The translations under genes and the position numbers were made by a program. 64,000 nucleotides of DNA from IMG/VR virus record IMGVR_UViG_3300028394_000057, positions 27,336-91,335 of that record; one strand, 5' to 3'. Position 1 is the stretch's first letter; each line of letters starts with the position of its first letter. The notes under the pieces are model-generated. The model was not told where the DNA came from. It worked only from the letters and a program-made list of their open reading frames with translations, and ran no database searches. Positions 44,724-56,679 of the stretch are shown here, in pieces. The stretch comes from a virus.

Positions 44724-44912
44724 GGGTTTACTCTTTCTCTAGGTTATATATCTATGATACAGGATACCCCTGACATTTGCAATAGTTCTGGGGAAAATGT
44801 TATGCTTTCGTAATCAACCAGGATGTTTACAGGTTTACATAATCATGGGGAAATTGTTATAGCATCGTAATACTACCCAATGTTTATTAGTTTACATAAT
44901 TATTTTCTGCGC

Positions 44913-44951
44913 ACAAAACCAGGGCAGTCAGATTGCTCCAACCACCCTGGT
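44913..44951 (-). terminator. Leftward terminator
   Basis: ACCAGGG (44918-44924) pairs with CCCTGGT (44945-44951), a 7-bp stem with a 20-base loop, followed on the minus strand by TTTTGTGCGCAG. It lies just after the stop of the 44964 gene and contains the GCGC box shared by many intergenic regions here. Confidence 0.6.
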
Positions 44952-44963
44952 CCCCTATTATCC

Positions 44964-45134
44964 CTATATGTCAGCCAAAACATTTCTAGCAGTCTCAACA
45001 AACTCATTGAATTCGTCTTCACGCTTTAGTCTCATCTCTATTAGTTTCAATACTTCTAGAGTAGGCATTTGATTTATACCCTTGACTTTTTTGAAACCGT
45101 CAATCATGGACAAGACGATTTCTTTGTCAGTCAT
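44964..45134 (-). CDS. Small helical protein, unknown
   Basis: This 56-residue protein overlaps the upstream gene by 8 bases. It has the sequence MTDKEIVLSMIDGFKK followed by two amphipathic helices (LEVLKLIEMRL and FNEFVETARNVL). It ends an operon of four small genes and is followed by a terminator. The function is unknown. Confidence 0.6.
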   Translation of the reverse strand: MTDKEIVLSMIDGFKKVKGINQMPTLEVLKLIEMRLKREDEFNEFVETARNVLADI

Positions 45135-45363
45135 TTACTTCTACCACTTCTATCATTTGATAAAGGTCATTATACTTTACGCTGTTGTATAGAATTTCCA
45201 GTAGTTCGTGATGAGCATAGTGAACCATGTCTTCCATTGTTCGTGGTTCCAGAGTTTCGCCTTCTTCAAGTTCGCTTTCAAGATACTCTCGTTCATTCTC
45301 GGTGTATCCATCATCTTCAAACTCAAAGTCCATTGTGATTTGTGCTCTAAGCATTTTAGGCAT
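45127..45363 (-). CDS. Acidic helical microprotein
   Basis: ATG 45363 follows GGAGAAGAAGT and is compatible with the 8-base overlap with the upstream gene. The 78-residue product starts MPKMLRAQITMDFEFED and continues with a very acidic helix (ENEREYLESELEEGETLE). The N-terminus resembles that of the gene at 45699 (MPKYYVKTIVEFSNEVEAD). The function is unknown. Confidence 0.55.
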   Translation of the reverse strand: MPKMLRAQITMDFEFEDDGYTENEREYLESELEEGETLEPRTMEDMVHYAHHELLEILYNSVKYNDLYQMIEVVEVND

Positions 45364-45706
45364 ACTTCTTCTCCTGCTTCTCCCAGTATTCGTCCTGAGC
45401 AATCATACTATCCAAATCGCTAATGCGACCTTCAATACAAGCAATAGCAAATCTGCTCAATGCTTTTGTGTGTAGTTCGTTTTCTAGTATTGCTAGTTCT
45501 TCTCTGTGTTGTTCCAACATAGTTTTTTCCAAGTCTTCTTCTCTTTCCTTATACATAGTTAGATAAATGTTTGCTTGTTCTGCTTCCCATTCATCGTGGG
45601 TAGGGCAGTAATCTTGATTGCCTTCGCAGATGTCGCAGAATGAATGGCAGTCAAAACTACCGTGATGTTTTGGACATTCTACTCTTTCGCAATCGCAATC
45701 ACTCAT
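45356..45706 (-). CDS. Cysteine-rich N-terminal zinc protein with coiled coil
   Basis: This 116-residue protein has a cysteine/histidine-rich N-terminus (CDCERVECPKHHG, CHSFCDICE, YCPTH), probably one or two zinc sites, followed by a long charged coiled coil. It overlaps neighbours on both sides by 8 bases. The function is unknown; it is typical of the zinc microproteins in this region. Confidence 0.6.
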   Translation of the reverse strand: MSDCDCERVECPKHHGSFDCHSFCDICEGNQDYCPTHDEWEAEQANIYLTMYKEREEDLEKTMLEQHREELAILENELHTKALSRFAIACIEGRISDLDSMIAQDEYWEKQEKKYA

Positions 45707-45875
45707 TATCTTCTTCTTCTTCGTCTGCTTCTAGTTCTTCAACTTCAATAGAATAAACTCCGTCATAGTGTAGGTCATCTTCCCACTTCCAACCAATCGC
45801 TTCTGCTTCTGCTTCGCTATCTGCTTCTACTTCGTTGCTGAACTCAACAATGGTCTTTACATAGTATTTTGGCAT
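45699..45875 (-). CDS. Small acidic protein, unknown
   Basis: This 58-residue protein starts MPKYYVKTIVEFSNEVEADS and has a very acidic C-terminus (ELEADEEEEDNE). The N-terminus is beta-rich with a WKWEDDLHYDGVYSIEV segment. A GAAAGA Shine-Dalgarno motif precedes it and the promoter lies at 45910-45931. The function is unknown. Confidence 0.6.
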   Translation of the reverse strand: MPKYYVKTIVEFSNEVEADSEAEAEAIGWKWEDDLHYDGVYSIEVEELEADEEEEDNE

Positions 45876-45932
45876 TTGTTATCTTTCTGTTAGGGGGTGT
45901 TGTGTTTCTATTATAGGGGATACCACTGACAT

Positions 45933-46241
45933 CTAGGACATCATAGACGCTTTTTCAAGCATCTCGTCATAGAGTATCTTGGAATTATCATAGGATAGTT
46001 TGTCTTCTAGGTTGCTCTTGATAGTTCTGAGCATTCGCAGATAGGACTGGAACTCAGGACCACTGGTATCGTGCCAACCACGCTCCGCACTGTCCCATAG
46101 TTGTCTCTCTAATGCTTCTATCCCCCAAGTGTAGAATTGCCTAGTCTGCCATTGTTCTAGGTCATTTCCGTCAGGGTAGATGTAAGGAGCATCTTCTTCA
46201 TCATAAACAGGGGTAAGGATAATAGTTTCGTTTTCATTCAT
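45933..46241 (-). CDS. Acidic helical protein, leaderless
   Basis: This 102-residue acidic protein starts exactly 6 bases after a TATAAT box of the TGTCAGTGG family (46248-46253). It has a tryptophan/tyrosine-rich helix (WQTRQFYTWGIEALERQLW) and a helical C-terminus. The function is unknown. Confidence 0.6.
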   Translation of the reverse strand: MNENETIILTPVYDEEDAPYIYPDGNDLEQWQTRQFYTWGIEALERQLWDSAERGWHDTSGPEFQSYLRMLRTIKSNLEDKLSYDNSKILYDEMLEKASMMS

Positions 46242-46415
46242 AAGTCAATTATACAGACTACCACTGACAAAAGCAATAGGCTTGGGGAAATCGTAACCCT
46301 TTCGTAATCAAGGTTTTTTGTTTATATAAACTATCTAAAATTTTGCGCACCGATTTGCCCACTTTGTCAAGTAGGAAATGGTGAGCAGTTTGAAATCTTG
46401 CTCAGGATTGTTTTA

Positions 46416-47429
46416 CTATACGGAAGCCAAAACCAAGTTCATCAAACGGTTTTTCTCAGCGTTGATTACAGGGTCAAAGCCAGAAGCAGAAGCGTAAATA
46501 CTTTCGTTGTTTGTGCCACGAGCATTACGATACCAGTCTAGGCGTTCTGTTAGAGCATTCATAGCACCCCAAGCAGTTCCAGCAATGGTGTTGTTGTATG
46601 TGCCAGTGTAGATAGATTGGATTAGTTCAATCTTATCAGACCACTTCTTCATAGAACCCTTGCTGTCCTTAGTTGGCATTGGATACGCTTTTAGAACAAT
46701 GTCGTTGAATTGCTGATTTGTGATTTCAGTTTCAATCATAGACTTAGCAAGAATGTCAAACTCGTCTAGGTAGTGATTAGCCAAGCCCAACGCTTCACGA
46801 GCAACAGCAATTTTACCCTCTGCGGTTTGTGTGTGTCTAATCTTGAATGATTGCTTCAAACCCTTTTTACCTTTTAGAGAAGATAGAGCAAGGTTGAGAG
46901 TGTTAGCACATACAACACGAACAGGAGTAATAGACGCTTGGATAGCGATACTTCCATCGTGGCTTGTGTTTAGTAGCAGGTATGACTTGACAACATCAGA
47001 CACGCCATTAGGGTCAAGGATAGTTTCACGCTCTAATGCGATTGAACCGAATACTTGTCTGCCACCCTTGATTGAACCAGCAGTTTCCCAACGACCGCCA
47101 CCATCTAGCAGGTTATCACCAAAAGAAAACAAGTCTTCATTTTGTAATGGAACATAACGCTCACCAACGACACCAAGAATGTCTGTCTGCTCTGCGTTGA
47201 ATGGATTAGTTCGTGATACGAATGAGTAGTTTCTATCGCTAGTGAAACCAGCAGGAACAACAACATCTTCAAGTCTGACATTCCAGTTGTCTAGGCTTGC
47301 GAGTGATAGCATTTCTGCGGTAGAAACTTCTTCATTGAATACAGTTCCTAGATTATGCCAAGCAGGTTGGCGGAGTGAAGCAAAACTAGCCTGACCAGTT
47401 GCTTCGTTGATTTCTAATTCGTGAGCCAT
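46416..47429 (-). CDS. DUF932 family protein
   Basis: ATG 47429 is preceded by AAAGG and lies downstream of a canonical promoter; earlier ATGs lie too close to or upstream of the transcription start. The 337-residue product (MAHELEINEATGQASFASLR, with VVGERYVPLQNEDLFSF, NTSHDGSIAI and VVCANTLNLAL) matches the DUF932 family of phage/plasmid-like proteins. The family has no firm function, but is common in large phages. It is followed by a conserved hairpin (46383-46403). Confidence 0.8.
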   Translation of the reverse strand: MAHELEINEATGQASFASLRQPAWHNLGTVFNEEVSTAEMLSLASLDNWNVRLEDVVVPAGFTSDRNYSFVSRTNPFNAEQTDILGVVGERYVPLQNEDLFSFGDNLLDGGGRWETAGSIKGGRQVFGSIALERETILDPNGVSDVVKSYLLLNTSHDGSIAIQASITPVRVVCANTLNLALSSLKGKKGLKQSFKIRHTQTAEGKIAVAREALGLANHYLDEFDILAKSMIETEITNQQFNDIVLKAYPMPTKDSKGSMKKWSDKIELIQSIYTGTYNNTIAGTAWGAMNALTERLDWYRNARGTNNESIYASASGFDPVINAEKNRLMNLVLASV

Positions 47430-47469
47430 AGGGACTACACCTTTCATTGTTGGATTTATTTGATAGTCA

Positions 47470-47498
47470 ATTATCCCACGATTTCGGGGATTTGTCAA
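47470..47498 (-). promoter_or_regulatory. Leftward canonical promoter of DUF932 gene
   Basis: On the minus strand TTGACA (47493-47498), a 17-base spacer and GATAAT (47470-47475) precede ATG 47429 by about 40 bases. A TTACGAA box lies just upstream of the -35 box, as at 48461 and 50595. Confidence 0.8.
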
Positions 47499-47556
47499 GT
47501 GTTTCGTAAAACAATTTTGCATTCTTTACCATTTCGTTACTTTTCGGGGCGCAGAA

Positions 47557-47608
47557 AAATCCCCCTGCTACTTTCGGGATTGTGTCCAGACTTCACAGGG
47601 GGATTGTA
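47557..47608 (-). terminator. Leftward terminator, large loop
   Basis: On the minus strand AATCCCCCTG pairs with CAGGGGGATT and is followed by TTTCTGCGCCCCG. The loop is about 30 bases. It ends the transcript of 47697-48134 and passes directly into the CTGCGC box of the next promoter module. Confidence 0.65.
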
Positions 47609-47696
47609 AGCAGTTTAGACACTTGCTTAGGTGTTTGGCTAACACAAGCCCTGTGATTTACCCTTACGGAACAGGGGGCTAGGGGAAGCCAATGGT

Positions 47697-48134
47697 TTAT
47701 AGCAAATCAAGAACAGAGTTGTATGTGCTTGATGTGATTGTTTCCTGAGTGGTTAGTTTTAGAAGCGATAGTGTCTTCTCCAACTTTTCCTTTTTGTCCC
47801 TGTTCTGCCAAGTGTCAGGGTCGCTAGGCTTCTCTGGCTTTGTGCCAATCTTAGCAACGATTTCCTTGCCAACTGCGATAGAAACAGAACCACGATAATC
47901 GCTGTTGATAGAGATGTTGTCTTCTTGATTACCATAGTCGCTGTAATCAACAATAGACTTTTTGTTTTTGCTAACCAAGTCAATTAGGTCTGCTGTGAAA
48001 GAAACAATCTCTTTCTTGTATGCTGAAAGCAACTTTGGATAATCTGCTTCTGCCTTAGCAATTTCTGCTAACTTGTTCTCAATCATCTCTACTACTACTG
48101 ATGTTGGGAGTTTTACGGATACGGAACGAGCCAT
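47697..48134 (-). CDS. Unknown protein with coiled coil
   Basis: This 145-residue protein has an N-terminal MARSVSVKLPTSVVVEMIEN motif, helical regions, and a beta-rich middle (ISINSDYRGSVSIAVGKEIV). It resembles small conserved proteins found in actinophages, but the function is unknown. A GAAAGTAGT motif precedes the start. A canonical promoter (TTTACA-17-TATAAT) lies upstream. Confidence 0.6.
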   Translation of the reverse strand: MARSVSVKLPTSVVVEMIENKLAEIAKAEADYPKLLSAYKKEIVSFTADLIDLVSKNKKSIVDYSDYGNQEDNISINSDYRGSVSIAVGKEIVAKIGTKPEKPSDPDTWQNRDKKEKLEKTLSLLKLTTQETITSSTYNSVLDLL

Positions 48135-48176
48135 AATGTTTTACTACTTTCTATTAGTGGGTTTTTGTATAATACA

Positions 48177-48205
48177 ATTATACAGGATTTAGGGGGATTT
48201 GTAAA
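48177..48205 (-). promoter_or_regulatory. Leftward sigma-A promoter
   Basis: On the minus strand TTTACA (48200-48205), a 17-base spacer and TATAAT (48177-48182) drive the gene starting at 48134. Confidence 0.7.
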
Positions 48206-48250
48206 TAGGCAGTTTAGACATTTGCCTAGATGTTATAGTTCTGTTATGAA

Positions 48251-48409
48251 CTACTTGGCAGTTGTCCAGCGTGGCTGTCCAGCAACATCAAGTTTGATAC
48301 GGACAGAGCCGTTTGCGTTCTTGATTACTTCCTGAACAGTGCCAACAACGCCAGACTTCTGGGTTGCGAACTGTGAGCCAACAGATGGAATGGTAAATGA
48401 ATTAGCCAT
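48251..48409 (-). CDS. KOW/SH3-like small protein
   Basis: ATG 48409 is preceded by GAAAGAAGC, while the in-frame start at 48460 would lie at the -10 box. The 52-residue product (MANSFTIPSVGSQFATQ, then VVGTVQEVIKNANGSVRIKL and PRWTTAK) resembles a KOW-like barrel. It could bind nucleic acid or the transcription machinery. A conserved hairpin follows. Confidence 0.6.
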   Translation of the reverse strand: MANSFTIPSVGSQFATQKSGVVGTVQEVIKNANGSVRIKLDVAGQPRWTTAK

Positions 48410-48749
48410 TTTTTGCTTCTTTCTACTTGTAGTTTTTCTCAACTTTTGTTGATAATACAAGTATAAGGCATAATCGGGGAAAAGTCAAGGGTATTCGTAA
48501 AAGATTTTTGTATCGTTATCATTTCGTTATCAAAATCGGGGCGCAGAATTTTAGTGAGCAGTTTATACACTTGCTCAGGTGTTAGGTATGTTATTATTCA
48601 GCAGTATTACCTCAATACCCTTTACTTGCCACTGCCTATTATGTTTTCTCCTTTTATCAAACATAAAAACTTTACCCAACTTTACCGCTTGGTGCGAGAG
48701 CAGTTTCAACACTTGCTCAGGTGCTTAGGCAGAAAAGAAAGGGAACTGC
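48410..48749. other. 340-base intergenic stretch with promoter module and two hairpins
   Basis: This stretch holds the promoter at 48460-48488, a TTCGTAA box (48494), two GTTATC boxes (about 48515-48533), a CGGGGCGCAG box (48537-48546), and two copies of a conserved hairpin (48556-48576 and 48698-48718). A leftward AAAAGGAG motif occurs near 48650 without a convincing start codon. No gene is supported. Confidence 0.6.
48460..48488 (-). promoter_or_regulatory. Leftward sigma-A promoter
   Basis: On the minus strand TTGACT (48483-48488), a 17-base spacer and TATACT (48460-48465) drive the 52-residue gene. A TTACGAA box lies directly upstream of the -35. Confidence 0.7.
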
Positions 48750-49133
48750 CTAAGATGTGATGTTCCAGTCATCTAATTCCCAGTGAGAGTTGTCTAGGTA
48801 TTCTTCTGCTACTCCCAAAGGATTTTCGGTAATGCCAAAATCTTCTGCTAACTTATCAGTATCAAAACCGATAGGGACAGTAAAGGTTGCTTGAACTTTG
48901 AAAGTCAATTCCATTTCAACTTCTTCTGTTAGTGTAAAGCCAAAGATTTCTGCTATCTCTGTTGCTGTGTCAAAGTCAATCTGCGAATTGGTTAGGGCTT
49001 CTTTCAACCAGTCTTCAAGTGTTTCTGTGTTTCTGGTCATCATACCTAATGCTTGCCAAAGGTCTTTGTTTTCTGTTGTTAGTTTTTCTAGTTCTTGTTT
49101 TAGTGCTGATAATACAGGGTGGTTGCTTTCCAT
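48750..49133 (-). CDS. Acidic protein with coiled coil, unknown
   Basis: This 127-residue protein starts with a coiled coil (KQELEKLTTENKDLWQAL), has a helical middle, and a beta-rich C-terminus (LTFKVQATFTVPIGFD) ending in acidic residues. The C-terminal beta segment resembles those of the small proteins at 43975 and 45699. Its promoter carries the TGTCAGTGG motif (49176). The function is unknown. Confidence 0.6.
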   Translation of the reverse strand: MESNHPVLSALKQELEKLTTENKDLWQALGMMTRNTETLEDWLKEALTNSQIDFDTATEIAEIFGFTLTEEVEMELTFKVQATFTVPIGFDTDKLAEDFGITENPLGVAEEYLDNSHWELDDWNITS

Positions 49134-49190
49134 TGTTTTCTTCTTTCTTTTAGTGTATCTCTATTATAAACCTAACCACTGACATTGTGA

Positions 49191-49568
49191 TTAGTCTTCG
49201 TCTTCTTCGTCATAGTCTTCACAGGTATCTCCACAGGCAGAGAAGCAAAGTTCGCATTCGTCTTCTTCTTGTTCTGCCCCTTGTGGAATAAGTGTTGTGA
49301 AGCCATCATTAGCATCTTCGTCTTCGCCTACGCTATGGACACCCTGAATAAACTTCAAGGCACAACTTTCGGCATACCACTTTTTTAGAGTGTCAAACAT
49401 TTCTGCTGGTTTCATTTCACTTCTGGTTCTAATCTCGTCATACTGATACTCACGCATAAGTTCTACTTGCTTGTCATCCATAAGCACATAGATTTTGTGG
49501 CAGGTATCAAAAGCGATACCCTGAGCAAACTGAACTGACATCTCTACATCATCCCAATAATCTTCCAT
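49191..49568 (-). CDS. Acidic protein with cysteine-rich tail
   Basis: ATG 49568 is preceded by GAAAGGAAACC; an earlier in-frame ATG at 49595 overlaps the -10 box. The 125-residue product has a helical body (EDYWDDVEMSVQFAQGIAF) and a C-terminal cluster with four closely spaced cysteines (CELCFSACGDTCEDY) in a very acidic context, probably a zinc site. The function is unknown. Confidence 0.6.
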   Translation of the reverse strand: MEDYWDDVEMSVQFAQGIAFDTCHKIYVLMDDKQVELMREYQYDEIRTRSEMKPAEMFDTLKKWYAESCALKFIQGVHSVGEDEDANDGFTTLIPQGAEQEEDECELCFSACGDTCEDYDEEDED

Positions 49569-49693
49569 TGGTTTCCTTTCTTCTTTGTATTTCAATTATA
49601 CAGGCTACCCCTGACATTTCGGGGATATTTAGCGTGTTTCGTAAATGTGTTATGAGTTTGTTATAAAAATCTGCGCACCCCGAAGGGTAGGAA

Positions 49694-49876
49694 CTAAGCC
49701 CTAGCCTTATCCCATTCATACTGCTCAATAAAGTTCTTAGCAGATAACCAAGCACGATACATTATTTCGTCATCAGGGCTTCCCTGTATGTCCCAACGCA
49801 ATAGTCTTCCTATTGTGTGTGAGTTTCTGTCTTCTAAGTCTGCTAATACTATTTCGTATGCTTTCTGTAATTCCAT
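49694..49876 (-). CDS. Small helical protein, unknown
   Basis: This 60-residue helical protein (MELQKAYEIVLADLEDRN) overlaps the upstream gene by one base (TAATG) and is preceded by AGGAAA. It is the last gene of a three-gene microoperon (50102 to 49694) and is followed by a UUCG-loop hairpin and a GCGCAG box. The function is unknown. Confidence 0.6.
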   Translation of the reverse strand: MELQKAYEIVLADLEDRNSHTIGRLLRWDIQGSPDDEIMYRAWLSAKNFIEQYEWDKARA

Positions 49877-50001
49877 TATGCTTTCCTAACTATAATTACT
49901 TCTTCACAAGTTTCACACTCTAAGGCGTAGTCTGTTGGTTTTTCCCAACTAGAATACTTTGCGATTACTATGTCGTGGTCAAAGTGTTCTGCTAAATCCA
50001 T
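49876..50001 (-). CDS. 41-residue CxxC microprotein
   Basis: This 41-residue protein (MDLAEHFDHDIVIAKYSSWE, then YALECETCEEVIIVRKA) has a single CxxC knuckle and overlaps both neighbours by one base. It has an AGGA motif upstream. Metal binding may require dimerisation. The function is unknown. Confidence 0.6.
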   Translation of the reverse strand: MDLAEHFDHDIVIAKYSSWEKPTDYALECETCEEVIIVRKA

Positions 50002-50102
50002 TAGTATCCTGCTTTCTCTAAAATTGCTAATAGGGCTTCTGCTTCTTCTTCTGTTAGTTTTGCTATTGCTTCTTCGTTGATTACATTATCAAAGTTTATC
50101 AT
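50001..50102 (-). CDS. 33-residue acidic microprotein
   Basis: This 33-residue acidic helical peptide (INEEAIAKLTEEEAEALLAI) is preceded by GAAAGGAAAC and a TGTCAGTGG-type promoter. Its stop overlaps the next start, so it may work partly as a translational leader for the two following genes. The function is unknown. Confidence 0.55.
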   Translation of the reverse strand: MINFDNVINEEAIAKLTEEEAEALLAILEKAGY

Positions 50103-50147
50103 TTGTTTCCTTTCGTTAGAGTTCTATTATATTTGCTACCACTGACA

Positions 50148-50351
50148 TTAGACTTCATCTTGCCATTTACCACAATTTTCACAAACTGCATCTCCAATAC
50201 CCATGTTCCAAATCAAAGGCTCAAAGGAACAAGAATTACATTTATGATAAGACACTCCATACAACTCCATGTCTTTTTCAGACATCTCATCCCAATAGAT
50301 TTTATGTGTTTTAGTTTCACACTCTTTACAATTTATACTAACTGACATCAC
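50148..50351 (-). CDS. Zinc-finger microprotein
   Basis: This 67-residue protein has three CxxC knuckles (CKEC, CNSC and CENC) arranged like double zinc ribbons. ATG 50351 or 50348 may start it; both overlap the upstream stop. It lies in an operon with 50338-50565. The function is unknown, possibly nucleic-acid binding. Confidence 0.6.
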   Translation of the reverse strand: MMSVSINCKECETKTHKIYWDEMSEKDMELYGVSYHKCNSCSFEPLIWNMGIGDAVCENCGKWQDEV

Positions 50352-50565
50352 TTAGCCACTCATCACAAACTGAACAAGCCCACTCTAAGTTTTCTGCTTG
50401 TGTAAAATCGTGGTCGTTCTTCTCAAACCACTCTGCGAAACTAGGTCTGTTCCAATCAGCACAACTGTCAAGGTAGTTGTAAAAGTGTTCGTCAAAACTT
50501 TCGTTATCTACAACAACCATACCTTCGCTATCGCCATAACTTCCGTCAAATGCTACATACAACAT
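50338..50565 (-). CDS. Small acidic protein with CxxC
   Basis: This 75-residue acidic protein (MLYVAFDGSYGDSEGMVVVD) has an N-terminal beta hairpin, a FAEWFEKNDHDFTQAENL helix, and a C-terminal CSVCDEWL knuckle. It is preceded by AAGGAGAACC. It shares a transcript with the zinc-finger gene. The function is unknown. Confidence 0.6.
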   Translation of the reverse strand: MLYVAFDGSYGDSEGMVVVDNESFDEHFYNYLDSCADWNRPSFAEWFEKNDHDFTQAENLEWACSVCDEWLSDVS

Positions 50566-50594
50566 AGGGGTTCTCCTTCTTTATCTTATAATCC

Positions 50595-50623: not shown

Positions 50624-50682
50624 GGCTATTCGTAAATGAGTTATGGGTTTGTTATCAAAATCGCTGCGCAGCCTTTCGCCTA

Positions 50683-50748: not shown

Positions 50749-50753
50749 ACTCA

Positions 50754-50782: not shown

Positions 50783-50906
50783 GAGCCTTTTTGTGTTCCA
50801 TGATGTCTGCACAATAGCGACACAAATCAGTTCCTTCCCAATTTTCGTCAATACATGCAACAGGGTCATTGTCATCTTCTACATTTTGACATGCAATCCA
50901 AGCCAT
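50760..50906 (-). CDS. 48-residue acidic zinc microprotein
   Basis: This 48-residue protein (MAWIACQNVEDDNDPVACID, then WEGTDLCRYCADIMEH) has four cysteines, including CRYC, and could bind zinc. It is directly downstream of the 50909 gene. Its 3' end carries the promoter for the next gene. The function is unknown. Confidence 0.6.
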   Translation of the reverse strand: MAWIACQNVEDDNDPVACIDENWEGTDLCRYCADIMEHKKALDLLRQS

Positions 50907-50908
50907 TT

Positions 50909-51427
50909 TTACAACTCCACTTCTTCGTCATTGTGAGTAAAGTAATCATTAGAGCAGTCAATACACATACCCAGTTCTTCAGCGTGTATGTCTTTAGACA
51001 TTAGTTCTCCACAGTTATCACAAGGCAGGGTATGAACAAAATCAAAATCAAAATAAGCACCCATTGGCTCATCGTGAGAGCCACGCCTAGCAGTTAGTTT
51101 CTTGTTTGGAATGTCAAGTGTCCAAGTGATAGTGAAATCTCCGTTGATAGTCAAAATACTATCAAGTTTATCAAGCGTAGTTTTAGCAGAGCCTTCCAAG
51201 TTTTGCCAAGTCATTCTTCTGCCCTTGATTAGAATAAAGTCATCTTCTGCAATCTCATTTAGTTTCTGCCACTCACCAATAACATAAGCGGTATCTTCTT
51301 TCTGCATCTCATAGCAATCGCCATAGCAGTATTCCATAGGCACAAACTCGCCTAGTTCTTCGTTGTAATCTTCGCAAGTGCAATCTGAAGATAGTGTTGC
51401 AATCATTACATCTAAGTTCTGTTCCAT
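50909..51427 (-). CDS. Acidic protein with zinc-ribbon C-terminus
   Basis: ATG 51427 is preceded by AAAAGGAAACC; an in-frame start at 51523 would include the promoter. The 172-residue product has an N-terminal cysteine cluster (DCTCEDYNEE and YCYGDCYEM), a helical and beta-rich middle, and a C-terminal zinc ribbon (CDNCGEL plus CIDCSND). The function is unknown. Confidence 0.6.
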   Translation of the reverse strand: MEQNLDVMIATLSSDCTCEDYNEELGEFVPMEYCYGDCYEMQKEDTAYVIGEWQKLNEIAEDDFILIKGRRMTWQNLEGSAKTTLDKLDSILTINGDFTITWTLDIPNKKLTARRGSHDEPMGAYFDFDFVHTLPCDNCGELMSKDIHAEELGMCIDCSNDYFTHNDEEVEL

Positions 51428-51458
51428 TAGGGTTTCCTTTTCTTTTGATAATACTATT

Positions 51459-51572
51459 TTACTTGATACCACTGACATTATGACAATCGCAAGAGCAACA
51501 ATTACAATCACTAAAATTGTCATTACAGGTAGCGTGATAACCTAAATCACATCTAGGGGTAATGTAAATCAT
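51459..51572 (-). CDS. 37-residue cysteine-rich peptide
   Basis: This 37-residue peptide has seven cysteines, four of them in CNCCSC-DC (residues 23-30). It is preceded by GAAAGGAAG and a TGTCAGTGG-type promoter (51609). The end of its coding sequence (HNVSGI) includes the conserved motif of the next promoter. It could be metal-binding or a redox peptide. The function is unknown. Confidence 0.55.
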   Translation of the reverse strand: MIYITPRCDLGYHATCNDNFSDCNCCSCDCHNVSGIK

Positions 51573-51695
51573 AGTCTTCCTTTCTTGATAATACTATTTT
51601 ACACCTAACCACTGACATTGGCGGTATTTAGGGGGAGTTTCGTATGTATCGTAACATAAGCGTTACAATCGGGTGCGCAGCCCGAAGGCTACCGT

Positions 51696-51812
51696 TTATA
51701 GGTAATCGAAAACATCTCCGTCAAATCTGGATGTTTCTAGTTCTTCCATTAGTTGAAAAACATCTATTTCGCCATTGTGATACTGGTCAAATAGTTCTTG
51801 GGCTTCTTCCAT
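51696..51812 (-). CDS. 38-residue acidic microprotein
   Basis: This 38-residue acidic helical peptide (MEEAQELFDQYHNGEIDVFQ) is preceded by AAGGAGAG and a TGTCAGTGG-type promoter (51851). A UUCG-loop hairpin (GTAGCC/GGCTGC) follows its stop. The function is unknown. Confidence 0.55.
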   Translation of the reverse strand: MEEAQELFDQYHNGEIDVFQLMEELETSRFDGDVFDYL

Positions 51813-51846
51813 TTATCTCTCCTTGTTTGATAATACTATTATAGAA

Positions 51847-51975
51847 CTAACCACTGACATTGCAGGGGTCATCACATTCAGCGTCATGTTCGTGGTCACA
51901 CACATAACAAACCATGAACTCATTTAGGTCTTCTGGGTCGTAGTCATCTAAACATTCTTTACAGGTATTAAGCAT
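51847..51975 (-). CDS. 42-residue zinc microprotein
   Basis: This 42-residue protein has CKEC, CYVC and a C-terminal C...C pair, a clear zinc-ribbon composition, and ends CNVSG*, whose codons contain the conserved promoter motif of the next gene. It overlaps the upstream gene by 8 bases. The function is unknown. Confidence 0.6.
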   Translation of the reverse strand: MLNTCKECLDDYDPEDLNEFMVCYVCDHEHDAECDDPCNVSG

Positions 51976-52267
51976 TTAGCACACTTTCTACGATGTAGTC
52001 TTCTAAACCAAAATACTTTACTAAGTCAATAGCAGGAACTCCGTCTTCGCCTGTCAAATCTGGCAGGGTATTTAGAATAATAGGTTGATTAGCATTATCT
52101 CCATTTACAAAGTCAAGAGCAAATACCATTTCTTCTGCCAACTCTCTAAGGTCAATACGATTACCATAAGTAGAGCGTAAGCCCTTACCAATAAAGATTT
52201 GATATATTTGTTCTTCTAGGGGATAACTCTCAATGCCTAGTAGATTTAGTTTAGTTGATTTAGCCAT
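51968..52267 (-). CDS. Unknown acidic helical protein
   Basis: This 99-residue protein (MAKSTKLNLLGIESYPLEEQ) has mixed helices and strands, an RSTYGNRIDLRELAEEMVFAL segment and no cysteine. It overlaps the upstream gene by one base. The function is unknown; it shares the operon with a basic protein. Confidence 0.6.
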   Translation of the reverse strand: MAKSTKLNLLGIESYPLEEQIYQIFIGKGLRSTYGNRIDLRELAEEMVFALDFVNGDNANQPIILNTLPDLTGEDGVPAIDLVKYFGLEDYIVESVLNA

Positions 52268-52437
52268 TAGTTATACTCCTTGATAGCCTTGATGATGTTT
52301 GATTTGCGACTACCCTTGCGAGTGGCAGGAGTAGCGACTAGGTGCTTATTTAGCAACAGACTTCTAAAAAGTTCTGCCGAGTGAGCGTTGCGAGTAGCCT
52401 GTGCTACTTTATTTAGTGGTGGCTTTCTTTTCTTCAT
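52267..52437 (-). CDS. 56-residue basic protein, leaderless
   Basis: ATG 52437 lies 6 bases after TATAAT (52444-52449) of a TGTCAGTGG-type promoter, so the in-frame start at 52491 is upstream of the promoter. The 56-residue product is strongly basic (MKKRKPPLNKVAQATRN, KHLVATPATRKGSRKSN) and probably binds nucleic acid. The function is unknown. Confidence 0.6.
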   Translation of the reverse strand: MKKRKPPLNKVAQATRNAHSAELFRSLLLNKHLVATPATRKGSRKSNIIKAIKEYN

Positions 52438-52529
52438 AGTCCTATTATACATTACACCACTGACATTGTGGGGATTTGGGAAACATTTCATAACTATCGT
52501 AACTCAATTGTGACCTTTCGGGTGCGCAG

Positions 52530-52556
52530 AAAAATTGCCACCCCGAAGGGTAGCAA
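52530..52556 (-). terminator. Leftward terminator with UUCG loop
   Basis: On the minus strand TTGCTACCC pairs with GGGTGGCAA (52535-52543 and 52548-52556) around the stable loop TTCG, followed by TTTTTCTGCGC. It ends the transcript of 52564-52716. Confidence 0.75.
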
Positions 52557-52563
52557 TCAAAAC

Positions 52564-52716
52564 CTAAAAAGGTTTGAGTGTGTCTATTGTTCTAGACAAC
52601 TTGACGATAACATCTTTTTGGTTATCAACAATTTTCTTATACTGACTAAGCAAATAACTCTGCCAGAATAAATAACCAACTAGAATAACTCCAATAACTG
52701 CGAATACAATTTCCAT
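52564..52716 (-). CDS. Single-pass membrane protein with coiled tail
   Basis: This 50-residue protein has an N-terminal membrane helix (IVFAVIGVILVGYLFW) followed by a charged helical tail. It is preceded by TTGGGAGAG, overlaps none of its neighbours, and is followed by a UUCG terminator. The function is unknown. Confidence 0.6.
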   Translation of the reverse strand: MEIVFAVIGVILVGYLFWQSYLLSQYKKIVDNQKDVIVKLSRTIDTLKPF

Positions 52717-52905
52717 TTATCTCTCCCAACAAGCGTCAAAAAACTTACCAGATAAAAATCTGTCGTTGTCATTTTTGAACATCTCAGCAAACTCATTTAC
52801 TAAATCGCTAAAAATCTGCTCACCCTCTAAACCCAAACTTTCAAGAGCAGGTCTAAATGCTGAGAGTATGTCAGCAGTTTCAACATAGTCCTTGCGTGTC
52901 ATCAT
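52717..52905 (-). CDS. Small acidic helical protein
   Basis: This 62-residue acidic, helical protein (MTRKDYVETADILSAFRPAL) starts at 52905 or 52902 and overlaps the upstream gene by one base. One cysteine is present near the end. The function is unknown. Confidence 0.55.
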   Translation of the reverse strand: MMTRKDYVETADILSAFRPALESLGLEGEQIFSDLVNEFAEMFKNDNDRFLSGKFFDACWER

Positions 52906-53114
52906 TAGTTATCTTCCTTACCTGCGTTGATTAGGATTGTGATTAGTTCTTGGCGTTCTTCGGTTGATAATTCCAAAGCCAGTTCTAATGCGTGGCTTGT
53001 TCCGTGTCCAGTGTGATTGCGAGTTCTGATTGTTAGATTGAACCAGTTTTCACTTCCAAAACTAAAACCGCCAAAAGTGTATCTTTCATTTTTATTTTCC
53101 ATTTTATTTTCCAT
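52905..53114 (-). CDS. Small protein, unknown
   Basis: This 69-residue protein has a beta-rich glycine/phenylalanine segment (YTFGGFSFGSENWFNLTI) and a helical C-terminus (STEERQELITILINAGK). A second in-frame ATG at 53102 is possible. It is preceded by a TGTCAGTGG-type promoter (53145). The function is unknown. Confidence 0.55.
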   Translation of the reverse strand: MENKMENKNERYTFGGFSFGSENWFNLTIRTRNHTGHGTSHALELALELSTEERQELITILINAGKEDN

Positions 53115-53154
53115 TTCTTCTTGATGTTATTATTATACAACCTACCACTGACAT

Positions 53155-53331
53155 TTAGAGTTGGTCAGCAGTATAGTCTTTTAGTTCTTCACGCCAATCG
53201 TCAGGGTCTTCACCCAGATAGTTCAGGGTATCCAAGTTTAGTGGCATTACGCCATCATAGTCTTTACAGGTATAGCAGATGTGGTCATCTATGCTAAATA
53301 GGGAGTAGCAAAATACGCAGATGTTTTTCAT
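53155..53331 (-). CDS. Zinc microprotein (ICxxC-CKxYDGxM family)
   Basis: This 58-residue protein has CVFC and CYTC knuckles followed by KDYDGVMPLN, and shares the pattern IC-x-TCK-x-YDG-x-M with the 52-residue product of 55286. Both are zinc-ribbon microproteins of the same family. It has a TGTCAGTGG-type promoter (53375, C variant). The function is unknown. Confidence 0.6.
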   Translation of the reverse strand: MKNICVFCYSLFSIDDHICYTCKDYDGVMPLNLDTLNYLGEDPDDWREELKDYTADQL

Positions 53332-53438
53332 TTATTTCTCATTTCTTTTCTTGATAATACTATTATACCCCCTACCACCGACATTTGGCAATAGGCAATT
53401 TTCGGGGCGCAGGTCTGCGCACCCCGAAGGGTAATGAG

Positions 53439-53552
53439 TTAGCAATCTCCGAAGAGTTCACTCTCAACAGTAGACCAGTCATCTTCATACTCGTTCAGGT
53501 CTTGGTCGCCCTCATAGTCATCAGACTCGTAGTTATCGCTGTATAGTAGCAT
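53439..53552 (-). CDS. 37-residue acidic microprotein
   Basis: This 37-residue, extremely acidic peptide (about half aspartate and glutamate, with DDYEGDQDLNEYEDDW) is preceded by GAAAGG and a TGTCAGTGG-type promoter (53592). An acidic peptide could mimic DNA, but this is speculation. A GCGC hairpin follows it. Confidence 0.5.
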   Translation of the reverse strand: MLLYSDNYESDDYEGDQDLNEYEDDWSTVESELFGDC

Positions 53553-53695
53553 AGTTGCCTTTCTTGGTTGATAGAATAATTATACTTTGAACCACTGACA
53601 TCGGGGAAAAACCAGGAGAAACGTAATTACCTTCGTAAATCGTTTCGGGGCGCAGGTTAGCGCAGAAAGTTGCGCAGAAATTTTGGTGCAATTAT

Positions 53696-53752
53696 TTATT
53701 GTATAAAATAAATAACTACAACCAAAACTAAAACTACACAAATAAAAATCAC
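53696..53752 (-). CDS. 18-residue transmembrane micropeptide (GTG start)
   Basis: A GTG at 53752 overlaps the stop of the upstream gene (GTGA) and is preceded by GAAGATGAAGA. The 18-residue product is a single hydrophobic helix (VVLVLVVVIYFIQ at the end), like the 21-residue peptide at 50683. No independent promoter is visible. Its small size keeps confidence low. Confidence 0.35.
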   Translation of the reverse strand: MIFICVVLVLVVVIYFIQ

Positions 53753-53949
53753 TCTTCATCTTCCTGCTCTTGCAAGAAATCAATATATTCATCAACAGAA
53801 ATTTGATACATGATTGGGTCGCAGTTTGCAAGAATTTGAGATGCATAAAAATCTGAGTATCCAATTTTGTAAGGTGGATAAAGTTCGTCTAGCATTTCGT
53901 CATGCATGGCTTCTAGTTCTTCTTGGCTGTGCTGTTCTCTAATGTCCAT
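53749..53949 (-). CDS. Acidic microprotein, unknown
   Basis: This 66-residue acidic helical protein (MDIREQHSQEELEAMHDEML) overlaps the upstream gene by one base and ends in an acidic tail (EQEDEE). The function is unknown. Confidence 0.55.
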   Translation of the reverse strand: MDIREQHSQEELEAMHDEMLDELYPPYKIGYSDFYASQILANCDPIMYQISVDEYIDFLQEQEDEE

Positions 53950-54035
53950 TAGTTTTGCTCCTCTGCTTGATAGTTGAAAAGATAATCTAAAAATTCTTCT
54001 AGTGCTTGACTTTGTAGTGTGTGAAAACTTAGCAT
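53949..54035 (-). CDS. 28-residue helical micropeptide
   Basis: This 28-codon frame is preceded by a strong AAGGAGC motif and overlaps both neighbours by one base (TAATG). The product (MLSFHTLQSQALEEFLDY...) is an amphipathic helix. It may be a translational coupler as much as a protein. The function is unknown. Confidence 0.45.
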   Translation of the reverse strand: MLSFHTLQSQALEEFLDYLFNYQAEEQN

Positions 54036-54235
54036 TAGTTTTGCTCCTTGTTTTTGTCTAGTTGGTAAAGTGAACCTAGCGTATAGGCTTGGTCAAATAT
54101 TTGTCTAAAGTTTACAACTTGATAAATGTCAATGCCAGCATCATCAGCATAAGATTTTACCTTATTCCAATAAGTCCAAAAGTCTTGCTCACGCTTGGCG
54201 TAAAACTTTTCCATATTATCCATTTTATTTTCCAT
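54035..54235 (-). CDS. Small helical protein, unknown
   Basis: ATG 54235 (MENKMDNMEKFYAKREQDFW) is chosen because the -10 box lies at 54250-54255; an in-frame TTG at 54250 is inside the promoter. The 66-residue product is charged and helical, with a tyrosine-rich core. The function is unknown. Confidence 0.55.
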   Translation of the reverse strand: MENKMDNMEKFYAKREQDFWTYWNKVKSYADDAGIDIYQVVNFRQIFDQAYTLGSLYQLDKNKEQN

Positions 54236-54277
54236 TTCTTTAGATTTCAATTATACAACTAACCACTGACATTTATC

Positions 54278-54418
54278 CTAGCGGACACGCTTGGCTTCAG
54301 GGTGTTCAATTAGAAATAACATTAGGTCTAATTGGTGAATAGCAGAAATAACGGTTTCTCCGTTGCTAGTGTATTCAAATAGGGTGTATCTCTTGCTAGG
54401 GTTTTTGTGTAATCTCAT
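54278..54418 (-). CDS. 46-residue basic microprotein
   Basis: This 46-residue protein (MRLHKNPSKRYTLFEYTSNG) has a short beta hairpin and a helix ending in a basic tail. It is preceded by GAAAGA and a TGTCAGTGG-type promoter (54459). The function is unknown. Confidence 0.55.
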   Translation of the reverse strand: MRLHKNPSKRYTLFEYTSNGETVISAIHQLDLMLFLIEHPEAKRVR

Positions 54419-54469
54419 TAGTTATCTTTCTTTTTAGTTAGTTCAATTATAGCGGATACCACTGACATC

Positions 54470-54592
54470 TTACCAGCGGTAAGCGTGTTCGTGTTCATTC
54501 ACTAACTTTTCAAACTCTTCGCTTGTAGCGAACTCAATTACAGTTCCACACTTGGCACATTCGGCAGTATCTTTACTCAATTTATTTCTCAT
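54470..54592 (-). CDS. 40-residue CxxC microprotein
   Basis: This 40-residue protein (MRNKLSKDTAECAKCGTVIE) has one CAKC knuckle and a helical C-terminus (FATSEEFEKLVNEH). Two histidines follow and may help bind zinc. Its TGTCAGTGG-type promoter starts at 54611 (-10 TATACT). The function is unknown. Confidence 0.55.
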   Translation of the reverse strand: MRNKLSKDTAECAKCGTVIEFATSEEFEKLVNEHEHAYRW

Positions 54593-54711
54593 TTCTTTTT
54601 ATCTACTTACAGTATAAACCTAACCACTGACATTTAGGCGGACAAACACACATTTTTATGCCTTTATAACAATAGTGTTATAAATGTTTTTCGGGCGTGT
54701 CGTTCGGGGCG

Positions 54712-54739
54712 CAGAAAATTTTGGGTAGTTAGCCCAAAA
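54712..54739 (-). terminator. Leftward terminator after membrane gene
   Basis: On the minus strand TTTTGGG (54733-54739) pairs with CCCAAAA (54719-54725) around a 7-base loop, followed by TTTTCTGCGC. It lies just after the stop of 54751-54969. Confidence 0.7.
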
Positions 54740-54750
54740 CTTTTTTACTT

Positions 54751-54969
54751 TTACTTTTTGCGTGAGCGAATTATAAATACTAACGCTAAAATAAATGCTA
54801 AGATAAAAAACTGAACGCTTACAAATCCCCAAATACCAGACTGAACTTTATCAGTAGCGTCATCAGTAAATACTGATAAATAATTTAGAGTGTCAGAGAT
54901 GAAGAAAGAAAAGATACCAGCAATCAACGCTGACATTACAATTCCAATTTTTAGAAAGTTTTTTTCCAT
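54751..54969 (-). CDS. Small two-pass membrane protein
   Basis: This 72-residue protein has membrane helices IGIVMSALIAGIFSFFISD and FVSVQFFILAFILALVFII, followed by a basic tail (RSRKK). The stop of the upstream gene overlaps its ATG. It is the last gene of a three-gene operon and is followed by a terminator. The function is unknown. Confidence 0.6.
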   Translation of the reverse strand: MEKNFLKIGIVMSALIAGIFSFFISDTLNYLSVFTDDATDKVQSGIWGFVSVQFFILAFILALVFIIRSRKK

Positions 54970-55064
54970 TAGTTATTTTCCTTTTTGTCAGTTTTGATTT
55001 GAGAGATAAAGTCTTCTCTCATTGACTTTTGGATTTCTGCCAAAGCAATTTTCCAGTCTTCCAT
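54969..55064 (-). CDS. 31-residue micropeptide
   Basis: This 31-residue helical peptide (MEDWKIALAEIQKSMREDFI) is preceded by GGAG and overlaps the genes on both sides by one base. The function is unknown. Confidence 0.5.
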   Translation of the reverse strand: MEDWKIALAEIQKSMREDFISQIKTDKKENN

Positions 55065-55234
55065 TATTTATTCTCCATCTTATTTACAATTTGAGCAATC
55101 AACGCTTTTTGCTTTTGAGTTAGTTGTCCAAAACATAGACCATAAGCATAGGCAACAGGATTTTCACCAGCAACGCCATCTTTTAGTCTTAGTTCGTTCA
55201 TTAGTCTAAAAGTGTCAAAGTCTTTATCTAACAT
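55064..55234 (-). CDS. Small helical protein, unknown
   Basis: This 56-residue protein (MLDKDFDTFRLMNELRLKDG) has a helical C-terminus (LTQKQKALIAQIVNK) and is preceded by AGGAAAAT and a TGTCAGTGG-type promoter (55276). The function is unknown. Confidence 0.55.
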   Translation of the reverse strand: MLDKDFDTFRLMNELRLKDGVAGENPVAYAYGLCFGQLTQKQKALIAQIVNKMENK

Positions 55235-55285
55235 TTATTTTCCTATTCTTTTCTTACTTACAATTATACAGGATACCACTGACAT

Positions 55286-55444
55286 TTATTCAGCAGTTTC
55301 CAATTCATCAGCATACATTTCAGCAATAAAGTCATACTCTTTTACTGCCTTGCTGATTTCCATTAGACCATCATACTCTTTACAAGTAGGGCAGATGTAA
55401 GCCCAAGTTTTAGTTCCGTCATAGACACAGATAATTCCAACCAT
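55286..55444 (-). CDS. Zinc microprotein (CPTCKEYDGLM family)
   Basis: This 52-residue protein (MVGIICVYDGTKTWAYICPT and CKEYDGLMEI) shares the ICxTCKxYDGxM pattern with the product of 53155, so the two are paralogues or derive from one module. It has three cysteines and is followed by an acidic helix. No clear promoter of the TGTCAGTGG type precedes it, so it is probably read through from upstream. The function is unknown. Confidence 0.6.
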   Translation of the reverse strand: MVGIICVYDGTKTWAYICPTCKEYDGLMEISKAVKEYDFIAEMYADELETAE

Positions 55445-55475
55445 TTTTTTTATTTCCTATTCTTTTTGTAGATTA

Positions 55476-55604
55476 TTATTTAGTTATGCTTTTTAGTTTT
55501 GCGAACATTGCCATAAGTTCATCAAACTCACTTGCGAGCATTGTGTCGCTTTCAGCGATAGCCATTAGTTCTTTGTATCTTGCTTTGATTTCGTAGTTGG
55601 TCAT
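55476..55604 (-). CDS. 42-residue helical microprotein
   Basis: This 42-residue helical protein (MTNYEIKARYKELMAIAESD) is preceded by AAAGGAC and a TGTCAGTGG element (55645) with a weak -10 box. It is part of a near-duplicated promoter pair with the gene at 55699. The function is unknown. Confidence 0.55.
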   Translation of the reverse strand: MTNYEIKARYKELMAIAESDTMLASEFDELMAMFAKLKSITK

Positions 55605-55642
55605 TTGTTAGTCCTTTCTTTGACTACTATTACACTACCAGC

Positions 55643-55871
55643 GACCACTGACATTTAGGGGATGTTTAGGGGTGTGTTGCTATTTCGTTATCGAACTGTT
55701 ATTTTTTGCCTAGTAGATACTTTACAAGGTTCTTTTCAGCAGTAGTTAGGGGGATACCTGCTCTGGCATACTTAGCAAGCATTATGGTTAGTTCTGTCTT
55801 TTTATCTTTCATAGTATTACTATACACTAGACCACTGACATTTAGGGGATGTTTAGGGGTGTGTTGCTATT
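55643..55871 (-). repeat. 42-base direct repeat in two adjacent promoters
   Basis: Positions 55643-55684 and 55830-55871 are identical over 42 bases (beginning GACCACTGACATTTAGG) and cover the TGTCAGTGG motif and the upstream element. It indicates recent duplication of a whole promoter-gene unit, or gene conversion between promoters. Confidence 0.75.
55699..55812 (-). CDS. 37-residue basic microprotein, leaderless
   Basis: This 37-residue basic helical protein (MKDKKTELTIMLAKYARAGI) starts 6 bases after a TATAGT -10 box (55819-55824) in the TGTCAGTGG family and so should be leaderless. Its promoter is nearly identical to the one before 55604 (42-base direct repeat). The function is unknown. 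Confidence 0.55.
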   Translation of the reverse strand: MKDKKTELTIMLAKYARAGIPLTTAEKNLVKYLLGKK

Positions 55872-55918
55872 ATGTTATCTATTTGTTATACTTGGGGGCG
55901 CAGCCCGAAGGCTAGACC

Positions 55919-56068
55919 CTAGTAGTCAGAGTCATCAGCAAACCAATCATCACCGCCTATGTATGGCGAGTAAGCCACACCTGTAACCTCATCACGCCCA
56001 CACTTGTGGTCTTTGCTGAATGGAAGAGAAACCCAGCCCTCGCAAGAGTCGCAGAAAATGTGCTTCAT
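55919..56068 (-). CDS. 49-residue zinc microprotein
   Basis: This 49-residue protein (MKHIFCDSCEGWVSLPFSKD) has CDSC and a further CG pair, a zinc-knuckle composition with an acidic C-terminus. A UUCG-type hairpin (AGCC/GGCT) follows its stop. It has a canonical promoter upstream (56094-56122). The function is unknown. Confidence 0.6.
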   Translation of the reverse strand: MKHIFCDSCEGWVSLPFSKDHKCGRDEVTGVAYSPYIGGDDWFADDSDY

Positions 56069-56093
56069 AGTTTTTACCTTTCGTTATAAGATA

Positions 56094-56122
56094 ACCTTAG
56101 CAGAACTAACATACATTGTCAA
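56094..56122 (-). promoter_or_regulatory. Leftward sigma-A promoter (weak -10)
   Basis: On the minus strand TTGACA (56117-56122) and TAAGGT (56094-56099) are separated by 17 bases. It drives the gene starting at 56068. The -35 is perfect, the -10 weak, so an activator may help. Confidence 0.55.
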
Positions 56123-56176
56123 TAGCAACACACCTATCGTTATCATCTTGTTACATATCGGGGGGCGCAGAAAAAT

Positions 56177-56251
56177 TGGGGTGTCTAGAGAGAATTGAAC
56201 TCTCATTGCTTAGACCACAACTAAGCGTTCTACCATTGAACTATAGACACC
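56177..56251 (-). tRNA. tRNA-His (GTG) with encoded CCA
   Basis: A complete minus-strand cloverleaf is present. The acceptor GTGTCTA pairs with TAGACAC, with an extra 5' G-1 and C73 that are diagnostic for tRNA-His. The D-stem is GTTC/GAAC, the anticodon stem CTTAG/CTAAG with loop TTGTGGT (anticodon GTG), and the T-arm GAGAG/CTCTC with loop TTCAATT. The 3' CCA is encoded at 56177-56179. Confidence 0.95.
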
Positions 56252-56277
56252 ATATTTTATTTAGTATTGTTATTGCG

Positions 56278-56386
56278 TGGTCTAAGTGAGTTACGCTCTC
56301 ACACTCTTACAATCTAGTAGGTGCTTATCTGTTTTACCAGTGTAGCGTTCCTATCGCTGTTGTCGCTCTCTATGAGCCATTAGACC
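56278..56386 (-). ncRNA. tRNA-like element of unusual shape (109 bases)
   Basis: On the minus strand, GGTCTAA (56380-56386) pairs with TTAGACC (56279-56285), followed by A73. After a TG spacer comes a 4-bp D-arm (GCTC/GAGC). A 5-bp stem GTGAG/CTCAC with a 7-base loop abuts the acceptor as a T-arm should. The loop, AGCGTAA, lacks the TTC of a T-loop. The middle is about 60 bases and holds a small AGCG/CGCT hairpin with a 7-base loop (ATAGGAA). It has the geometry of a tRNA with an insertion or a degenerate or novel tRNA-like RNA. It follows a TGTCAGTGG-type promoter (56435) and precedes the tRNA-His. Confidence 0.45.
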
Positions 56387-56679
56387 TTATTTAGTTATCA
56401 ACTTTTATTTCTTATAGTATTACTATACACCTAACCACTGACATTTGACGCACCAACACACCTTTATTACATTTCGTTATCAATTAGTTATAATTGGGGG
56501 CGCAAAGGGTAGCGTGTAGGTACAAATGTATTTAACAAAGGGTAGCGTGTACCCTCTGTGTGCTCACTATAAGTGGTAGCGTGTACCCTACATATCATGT
56601 ATCATACACATTAGCAAAATATTCAGATTTTGTTAAATATGATTTTAAAATATTTTTCAGATTTTGGCGGTATGTATGT
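56387..56679. other. Gene-free stretch between zinc membrane gene and tRNA-like RNA
   Basis: This 293-base region holds the TGTCAGTGG-type promoter of the tRNA-like element (-10 at 56422-56427), GTTAT boxes near 56475-56490, a GGGGGCGC box (56496) and the three hairpin repeats at 56507-56588. No gene is supported. Confidence 0.6.
56507..56588. repeat. Three GGTAGCGTGTACCC repeats
   Basis: GGGTAGCGTGTA-type repeats lie at 56507-56518, 56540-56554 and 56574-56588. The second is the perfect hairpin GGGTA-GCGTG-TACCC. They occupy the gene-free part between the tRNA-like promoter and the 56680 gene and could be regulator sites or a terminator of the 56680 operon. Confidence 0.55.

Follow-up and report, generated by a model that had tools for sequence, protein, structure and literature searches.

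A promoter spacer element at a fixed distance from the -10 box in a phage family allied to actinophages: a candidate activator-dependent promoter class

The stretch of DNA analysed here, called the window, comprises 64,000 bases (27336-91335) of the 91,335-base uncultivated virus record IMGVR_UViG_3300028394_000057; the records used in this work are in part incomplete. The window contains 20 leftward sites in which the nine-letter sequence TGTCAGTGG, or a close variant, lies exactly seven bases upstream of a -10 box, and the promoter can be written as AAATGTCAGTGG. Related sites are found throughout one family of phages, where the general form is AAATGTC-N12-TAnnnT. We suggest, with a probability of about 0.68, that these sites form a class of activator-dependent phage promoters, at which the RNA polymerase of the host, carrying its principal sigma factor, would be helped by a putative phage-encoded factor reading the element in the promoter spacer.

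Element sites and predicted start sites in the window

A search of the window with TGTCAGTGG-N7-TANNNT, allowing at most one mismatch, gives 20 matches, all on the minus strand between 44754 and 56443, while shuffled sequence gives 0.31 on average and never more than 3. Seventeen of the sites carry TGTCAGTGG exactly, two carry TGTCAGGGG and one TGTCGGTGG, and a T follows GTGG in all 20. A TATAAT-like box is present at the seven-base distance in 19 sites; the remaining one (55632-55653) has TAGTGT in the same place. The original prediction, made from the letters of the window, had reported 20 leftward promoters with this motif, 19 of them at exactly seven bases from a TATAAT-like box, and both counts are reproduced here. 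It had also proposed a motif search of the complete genome and of related phages. In the complete record there are 17 exact full matches on the minus strand, all inside the same block of the window, and none on the plus strand, and the reversed pattern has no match anywhere in the 91,335 bases; the core of the element is shared by 80 related loci and nine genomes, described below.

The sites stand in front of genes belonging to a leftward array, whose members are very small. With gene calls made by a simple script, an open reading frame (ORF) starts within 90 nucleotides of the predicted +1 for 18 of the 20 sites (median 21 nucleotides). In three of them (46241, 52437 and 55812) the ATG, as read from the sequence, lies exactly at the predicted +1. 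An Rfam search of 42-58 kb of the window returned only the tRNA.

Two signs, the base at +1 and leaderless start codons, are independent of how the sites were selected. Selecting on TGTCAGTGG only, with no filter on the -10, yields 182 distinct sites, in which -12 is T in 98%, -11 is A in 98% and -7 is T in 98%. In the same selection the predicted +1 is A in 81%, and -1 is T in 71% or C in 18% (T or C in 89%); ordinary TTGACA promoters from the same genomes have A at the corresponding base in 69%. Leaderless start codons fall on the predicted +1 in 47 sites and on +2 in 17, and almost nowhere else within 15 bases. These signatures support the view that the element sites are promoters with a predicted start at an A.

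The individual sites, all on the minus strand and given with their predicted +1, are as follows. TGTCAGGGG is found at 44754-44775 with the -10 TATCAT after N7 (+1 44747; gene 44175-44723) and at 49595-49616 with TATAAT (+1 49588), while TGTCGGTGG occupies 53362-53383, also with TATAAT (+1 53355). The element is followed by TATAAT at 45910-45931 (TGTCAGTGG; +1 45903), 49163-49184 (+1 49156; gene 48750-49133), 50126-50147 (+1 50119), 51838-51859 (+1 51831), 53132-53153 (+1 53125; gene 52905-53114), 53579-53600 (+1 53572), 54250-54271 (+1 54243; gene 54035-54235), 54446-54467 (+1 54439) and 55263-55284 (+1 55256; gene 55064-55234). The predicted leaderless starts belong to the sites at 46248-46269 (TATAAT; 46241 is the first base of the ATG that opens the ORF 45933-46241), 52444-52465 (TATAAT; similar leaderless starts occur in the related loci L165-L168) and 55819-55840 (TATAGT). 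The -10 reads TAAAAT at 51456-51477 (+1 51449; gene 50909-51427) and 51596-51617 (+1 51589), TATACT at 54611-54632 (+1 54604) and TATAGT at 56422-56443 (+1 56415). The weak TAGTGT box at 55632-55653 is the odd one among the 20.

Form of the element across the phage family

All site counts in this section come from related sequences, which are not independent, so they should be read as counts and not as probabilities. Scanning IMG/VR for TGTCAGTGGN7TATAAT identifies at least 120 stretches, with 1.07 Mb in total. Among the matches listed, all 327 copies of TGTCAGTGG have TAnnnT at seven bases, many of them having been selected by the pattern itself, but there is a single copy of the reversed 9-mer. 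Within 28 whole records the sites fall almost entirely on one strand, and the reversed control gives zero. An unbiased set was obtained from 80 related loci fetched through the neighbouring DUF932 protein and not through the motif. Here 182 of 191 copies of TGTCAGTGG have TAnnnT at exactly seven bases, and reversed 9-mers number four. De novo k-mer enrichment upstream of TATAAT-like boxes in these loci ranks AAATGTCAG first, in one register, and TTGACA-17 second, and AATGTCAG is found 243 times at spacing 10 from the -10 and at most six times at any other distance.

A logo of 464 distinct sites shows AATGTC(A)G(T/A)(GG or CC) at -30 to -20 and TATAAT at -12 to -7. Positions -18 to -14 vary freely between these conserved blocks, and upstream of -32 the logo contains no strongly conserved sequence. 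When AATGTC alone is fixed, -23 is G in 82% of the sites and -21/-20 is GG or CC, with GC and CG very rare. At -22 to -20, the combinations TGG (188), ACC (126) and AGG (63) dominate among 441 sites in L163-L242. That the -21/-20 step changes as a unit hints that a base step, rather than single letters, may be read, i.e. a shape readout.

Outside the TGTCAGTGG form, lineages prefer GGTGG, AGACC, TGACC or CGTGG. A peak at [AT]ATGTC-N12-TAnnnT is present in all nine family genomes compared, and the AAATGTC core is kept across genomes with about 50% DNA polymerase identity. From these comparisons the invariant family core is AAATGTC and the general element AAATGTC-N12-TAnnnT. Since other lineages prefer other tails, TGTCAGTGG is best seen as the form reached by the window lineage. 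The original prediction was thus right about a promoter element at rigid spacing, but the motif it named is a lineage form of a wider element. In the genome G034 (L244-L249; L184), TGn stands before a degenerate TAnnnT -10 in all 18 AAATGTC-N12 sites, i.e. the same element with a different balance of parts.

Proteins of the phage family are encoded in 116 of the 120 motif-scan stretches listed, and the other four lack the AATGTC core. Among named phages there is no close relative at the DNA level, but the proteins point to Streptomyces phages; the nearest belong to Stanwilliamsviridae, with 55% identity in DNA polymerase. BillNye, of this family, is the nearest isolated relative in gene content and order, with orthologues of capsid, tail, helicase, primase, DNA polymerase, RecA-like, RuvC and WhiB proteins. 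On this basis the carriers are allied to Stanwilliamsviridae in core gene content and order, which is not a formal taxonomic placement. The complete BillNye genome, however, has no site at the AAATGTC-N12-TAnnnT spacing; only TTGACA-17/18 is enriched there, in canonical TTGACA-17/18-TAnnnT promoters.

Thirty of the 32 records encode one WhiB protein, which points to actinobacterial hosts, and the carriers are uncultivated phages that probably infect actinobacteria. Metagenomes and one isolation study have revealed freshwater actinophages that possess whiB and are low in G+C (PMC6802176, PMC10202952), and such a setting is a plausible context for the family. The strict 18-base form AATGTCAGTGGTN6TATAAT was also searched in 84,980 bacteria and archaea, one genome per species. 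It gave 10 singletons in unrelated taxa, none titled actinobacterial, where base counts predict about 7.5, so that the strict form is unlikely to serve a host regulon. One of the 10 (L136) is a 5-kb contig binned as Candidatus Saccharibacteria with homologues of the family and two element-type sites, and it is probably a mis-binned phage fragment. Together with the motif scan, this supports restriction of the element to one WhiB-carrying phage family allied to actinophages.

The -35 region and the proposed mechanism

A strong -10 is present in 18 of the window sites; of these, five of the six letters of TTGACA at spacing 16-18 are found in one (0.32 expected), namely TTGCCA at spacing 18 in the site at 53362-53383, and the TG of an extended -10 is found in none. 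In the nearest relatives of the window 8 of 107 sites have a -35 (2.2 expected), at or slightly above chance. Promoters of the usual TTGACA-17 type nearby, with +1 at 47463, 48170, 48453 and 50588, are without the element, as had been claimed. A -10 box with neither a -35 nor a TGn should be a poor promoter for sigma alone, and in the window lineage activation is therefore favoured over repression. An inverted -35 (TGTCA being the reverse complement of TGACA) was considered and rejected, since -23 is G in 82% of the sites, where A would be expected.

We suggest that sigma region 2 of the host holoenzyme would read the ordinary -10 at -12 to -7, while a putative phage factor would read AAATGTC(A)G and the GG/CC step in the spacer (in the window form AATGTCAGTGGT, spanning -30 to -19) and stabilise the polymerase. 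The -35 contact would thereby become dispensable, and the -35 would have been lost from this class in the window lineage. The class would drive the block of very small genes, mostly each from its own promoter and with 5' leaders of about 20 nucleotides or none, and the WhiB-like protein may partner sigma-A region 4 in an AsiA-like role. The sequence itself shows the element, its rigid spacing, the signatures at the start site, the missing -35 in the window lineage and the confinement to one family; we infer that the factor would act in trans, be encoded by the phage, activate, and be used after the TTGACA promoters.

Three observations weigh against this proposal. At the other loci, 88 of 369 sites (about 24%) carry five or six letters of TTGACA at spacing 16-18 (4.4 expected), and such coexistence with a near-consensus -35 would also be expected of a repressor operator located in the spacer. 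Further, the comparison of genomes revealed no gene that follows the element, either by its presence or by its recognition helix: the WhiB-like, MerR-like and small helix-turn-helix (HTH) proteins described below are all present in BillNye, which lacks it. Finally, the promoters of DUF932 and its two neighbours are of the TTGACA type in the genomes G000 and G018, which would suggest an early-then-middle programme, but in G009 and G024 the same genes are preceded by element promoters.

The claim that there is no -35 stands for the window lineage but does not hold for every site of the wider family. The contrast between 88/369 and 1/18 indicates a spacer element that tolerates a -35 and, in the window lineage, does without one. 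One composite in G020 reads AATTGACAAATGTCAGACCCTCATAGTATAAT; composites in this genome (L156, about 19726-19756; L157, about 282-312) combine TTGACA, AATGTCAG or ATTGTCAG, and TATAAT or TATACT, with the -35 abutting the element. We suggest that the element may have originated within promoters of the ordinary kind, where the -35 would only later have become dispensable.

The proposed architecture is aptly compared with T4 middle promoters, to which it would be analogous, though not necessarily homologous. In T4, the -35 is replaced by the MotA box, (a/t)(a/t)(a/t)TGCTTtA, whose end lies 12 +/- 1 bp upstream of the -10 (PMC2988021). In the same way the promoters described here keep the host -10 and have a short asymmetric phage box at fixed distance in which an A/T triplet is followed by TG, and the end of AAATGTC is separated from the -10 by 12 bp in the nine genomes and 80 loci; as regards architecture, the parallel drawn in the original prediction is apt. 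However, the box is AAATGTC(A)G and not wwwTGCTTtA, its TG lies about 3 bp nearer the -10, and the phage family is unrelated. MotA and AsiA (PF09158, PF09010) match none of 21 records in a search in which the positive controls were also unmatched and which does not cover distant analogues. Many wider-family sites also have a -35, unlike those of the window lineage (1/18).

Candidate readers and alternative explanations

The window encodes three candidate partners or readers. The WhiB-like protein (27449-27739, plus strand; PF02467, 3.9e-11) has four cysteines and a GVWGG turn, and no AT-hook was seen in it. WhiB proteins bind sigma-A region 4, making this one a natural candidate partner, but BillNye carries an orthologue with 44% identity. 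The apparent MerR-like HTH protein (8613-9143, plus strand) belongs to phrog_9440 (function unknown); its HTH was read by eye, and its BillNye orthologue is annotated as HTH. It is a weaker candidate as reader, and against it speaks that it is common to elementless BillNye and has a recognition helix that does not follow the element. A MerR-type spacer activator also differs from what is found here: the element is asymmetric and not palindromic, and the -35 spacers are 16-18 (the range tested) instead of 19-20. The third, likewise weaker, candidate is a 51-residue HTH protein (19906-20061, plus strand), whose orthologues match sigma-70 region 4 (PF04545) below the cut-off. In the ORF listing it extends to an upstream TTG, and it is conserved to BillNye gp161. 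It does not track the element, because its recognition helix in G009 and G024 is nearer to that of BillNye than to that of G000 and G020.

A phage sigma factor as reader is rejected, as region 2 (PF04542) matches none of 32 records, with 10 of 14 control genomes matched, and region 4 is found only as the 51-residue protein below cut-off. Comparing genomes by gene loss gave no lead, since G034, wrongly taken as a genome that had lost the element, has 18 AAATGTC-N12 sites. The two small proteins next to DUF932 were also considered and rejected: neither their folds nor their sequences match anything significantly, and nothing in them points to DNA binding.

An alternative is that the element is read by WhiB itself while attached to region 4 of the host sigma-A, so that a single factor both displaces or modifies the -35 contact and recognises AATGTC. 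One WhiB per record in nearly the whole family is consistent with this, as is the fact that WhiB7, besides binding sigma, contacts promoter DNA; WhiB7 promoters are likewise sigma-A promoters, assisted by a small protein that attaches to region 4. However, the sites of WhiB7 are A/T-rich and lie upstream of the -35, while the present element lies in the spacer, where a -35 may be absent altogether. With no AT-hook seen in the window protein and an orthologue in elementless BillNye, we find this explanation rather unlikely. The L5 operator site also contains TGTCA, and the element could instead be an operator in the promoter spacer, at which a phage repressor, perhaps an L5-like monomer on an asymmetric site, silences the promoters of the small genes. 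The many sites per genome recall the operators and stoperators of L5 and other cluster A actinobacterial phages, which are also found in intergenic regions away from promoters; the present sites are, like those of L5, asymmetric and oriented with transcription (PMC9283540). The -35 in about a quarter of the wider-family sites is compatible with such an operator. Against it, practically all copies of TGTCAGTGG keep a fixed distance from a -10, unlike stoperators, and the sequence differs from that of L5. Window promoters without a -35 or an extended -10 would offer little to repress, and a tyrosine integrase (PF00589) is found in none of 27 records, with 14 of 14 controls matched, in a search that did not include serine integrases. 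We consider a repressor operator improbable.

Two further explanations place the origin of the pattern elsewhere. If a host transcription factor read the element and the phage family exploited it, the failure to tie any phage gene to the element would be understandable; yet the strict 18-base form, the only one tested, is at chance level in the 84,980 genomes, and such a host factor is very unlikely. The pattern could also be a by-product of promoter duplication, copies of an ancestral promoter having spread with the small genes and the spacer being kept by recent descent. The 17 window copies are indeed letter-identical over nine bases, and the upstream flanks are partly alike among window sites. 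But positions -18 to -14 vary freely between the conserved blocks, and the core persists at about 50% DNA polymerase identity and in G034 with its changed TGn-TAnnnT -10, which makes duplication by itself hardly credible. The activator-dependent class thus remains our preferred reading. A more specific version of it, a new system resembling sigma appropriation, in which a novel activator, possibly with the phage WhiB on sigma-A region 4, redirects the host RNA polymerase to about 10-30 promoters in each genome, having evolved within the spacers of TTGACA promoters before the -35 became unnecessary, is a tentative proposal that we put at somewhat below even odds.

Neighbouring genes and significance

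The block 46416-48409, on the minus strand, contains three genes, present in about 75 of the 80 loci, and in the window lineage none of their promoters has the element. DUF932 (46416-47429), the bait for the 80 relatives, has a TTGACA-17 promoter (+1 47463). The 145-residue protein (47697-48134; TTTACA-17, +1 48170) and the 52-residue protein (48251-48409; TTGACT-17, +1 48453) are family-specific and without known relatives. In AlphaFold-type models the former is predicted to consist of a long helix and a small domain, without a fold match, and the latter as an all-beta, Tudor/SH3-like protein. Elsewhere in the window, on the plus strand, a pyrimidine-dimer DNA glycosylase gene (PF03013; 40455-40985) lies behind a near-perfect TTGACA-17-TACAAT promoter, and a small heat-shock protein HSP20 (PF00011; 34119-34523) is conserved in most of the phage family. 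Among the genomes first compared, relatives of six leftward genes of 237-366 residues (28733-33999, minus strand) occur in G020 alone. At positions 1-8000, where large tail genes are found, the G+C is about 0.30, lower than in most of the remainder (about 0.37).

The open-licence literature searched contains no description of the motif as a phage promoter, and none of a promoter class with a fixed-place, activator-type box in actinobacteriophages; the earlier statement that no such motif is known for these phages agrees with this. Phage WhiB genes are widespread but without an agreed role in phage transcription, and a family-wide, sequence-defined promoter class with -35-bearing intermediates makes the roles of such factors testable. 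The intermediates also offer a possible route from ordinary to activator-dependent promoters. The element allows promoters and start sites to be annotated in hundreds of uncultivated phage contigs. Finally, a fixed word ahead of an ordinary -10 suggests that these phages may bring their own protein to redirect the host RNA polymerase, as T4 does in E. coli.

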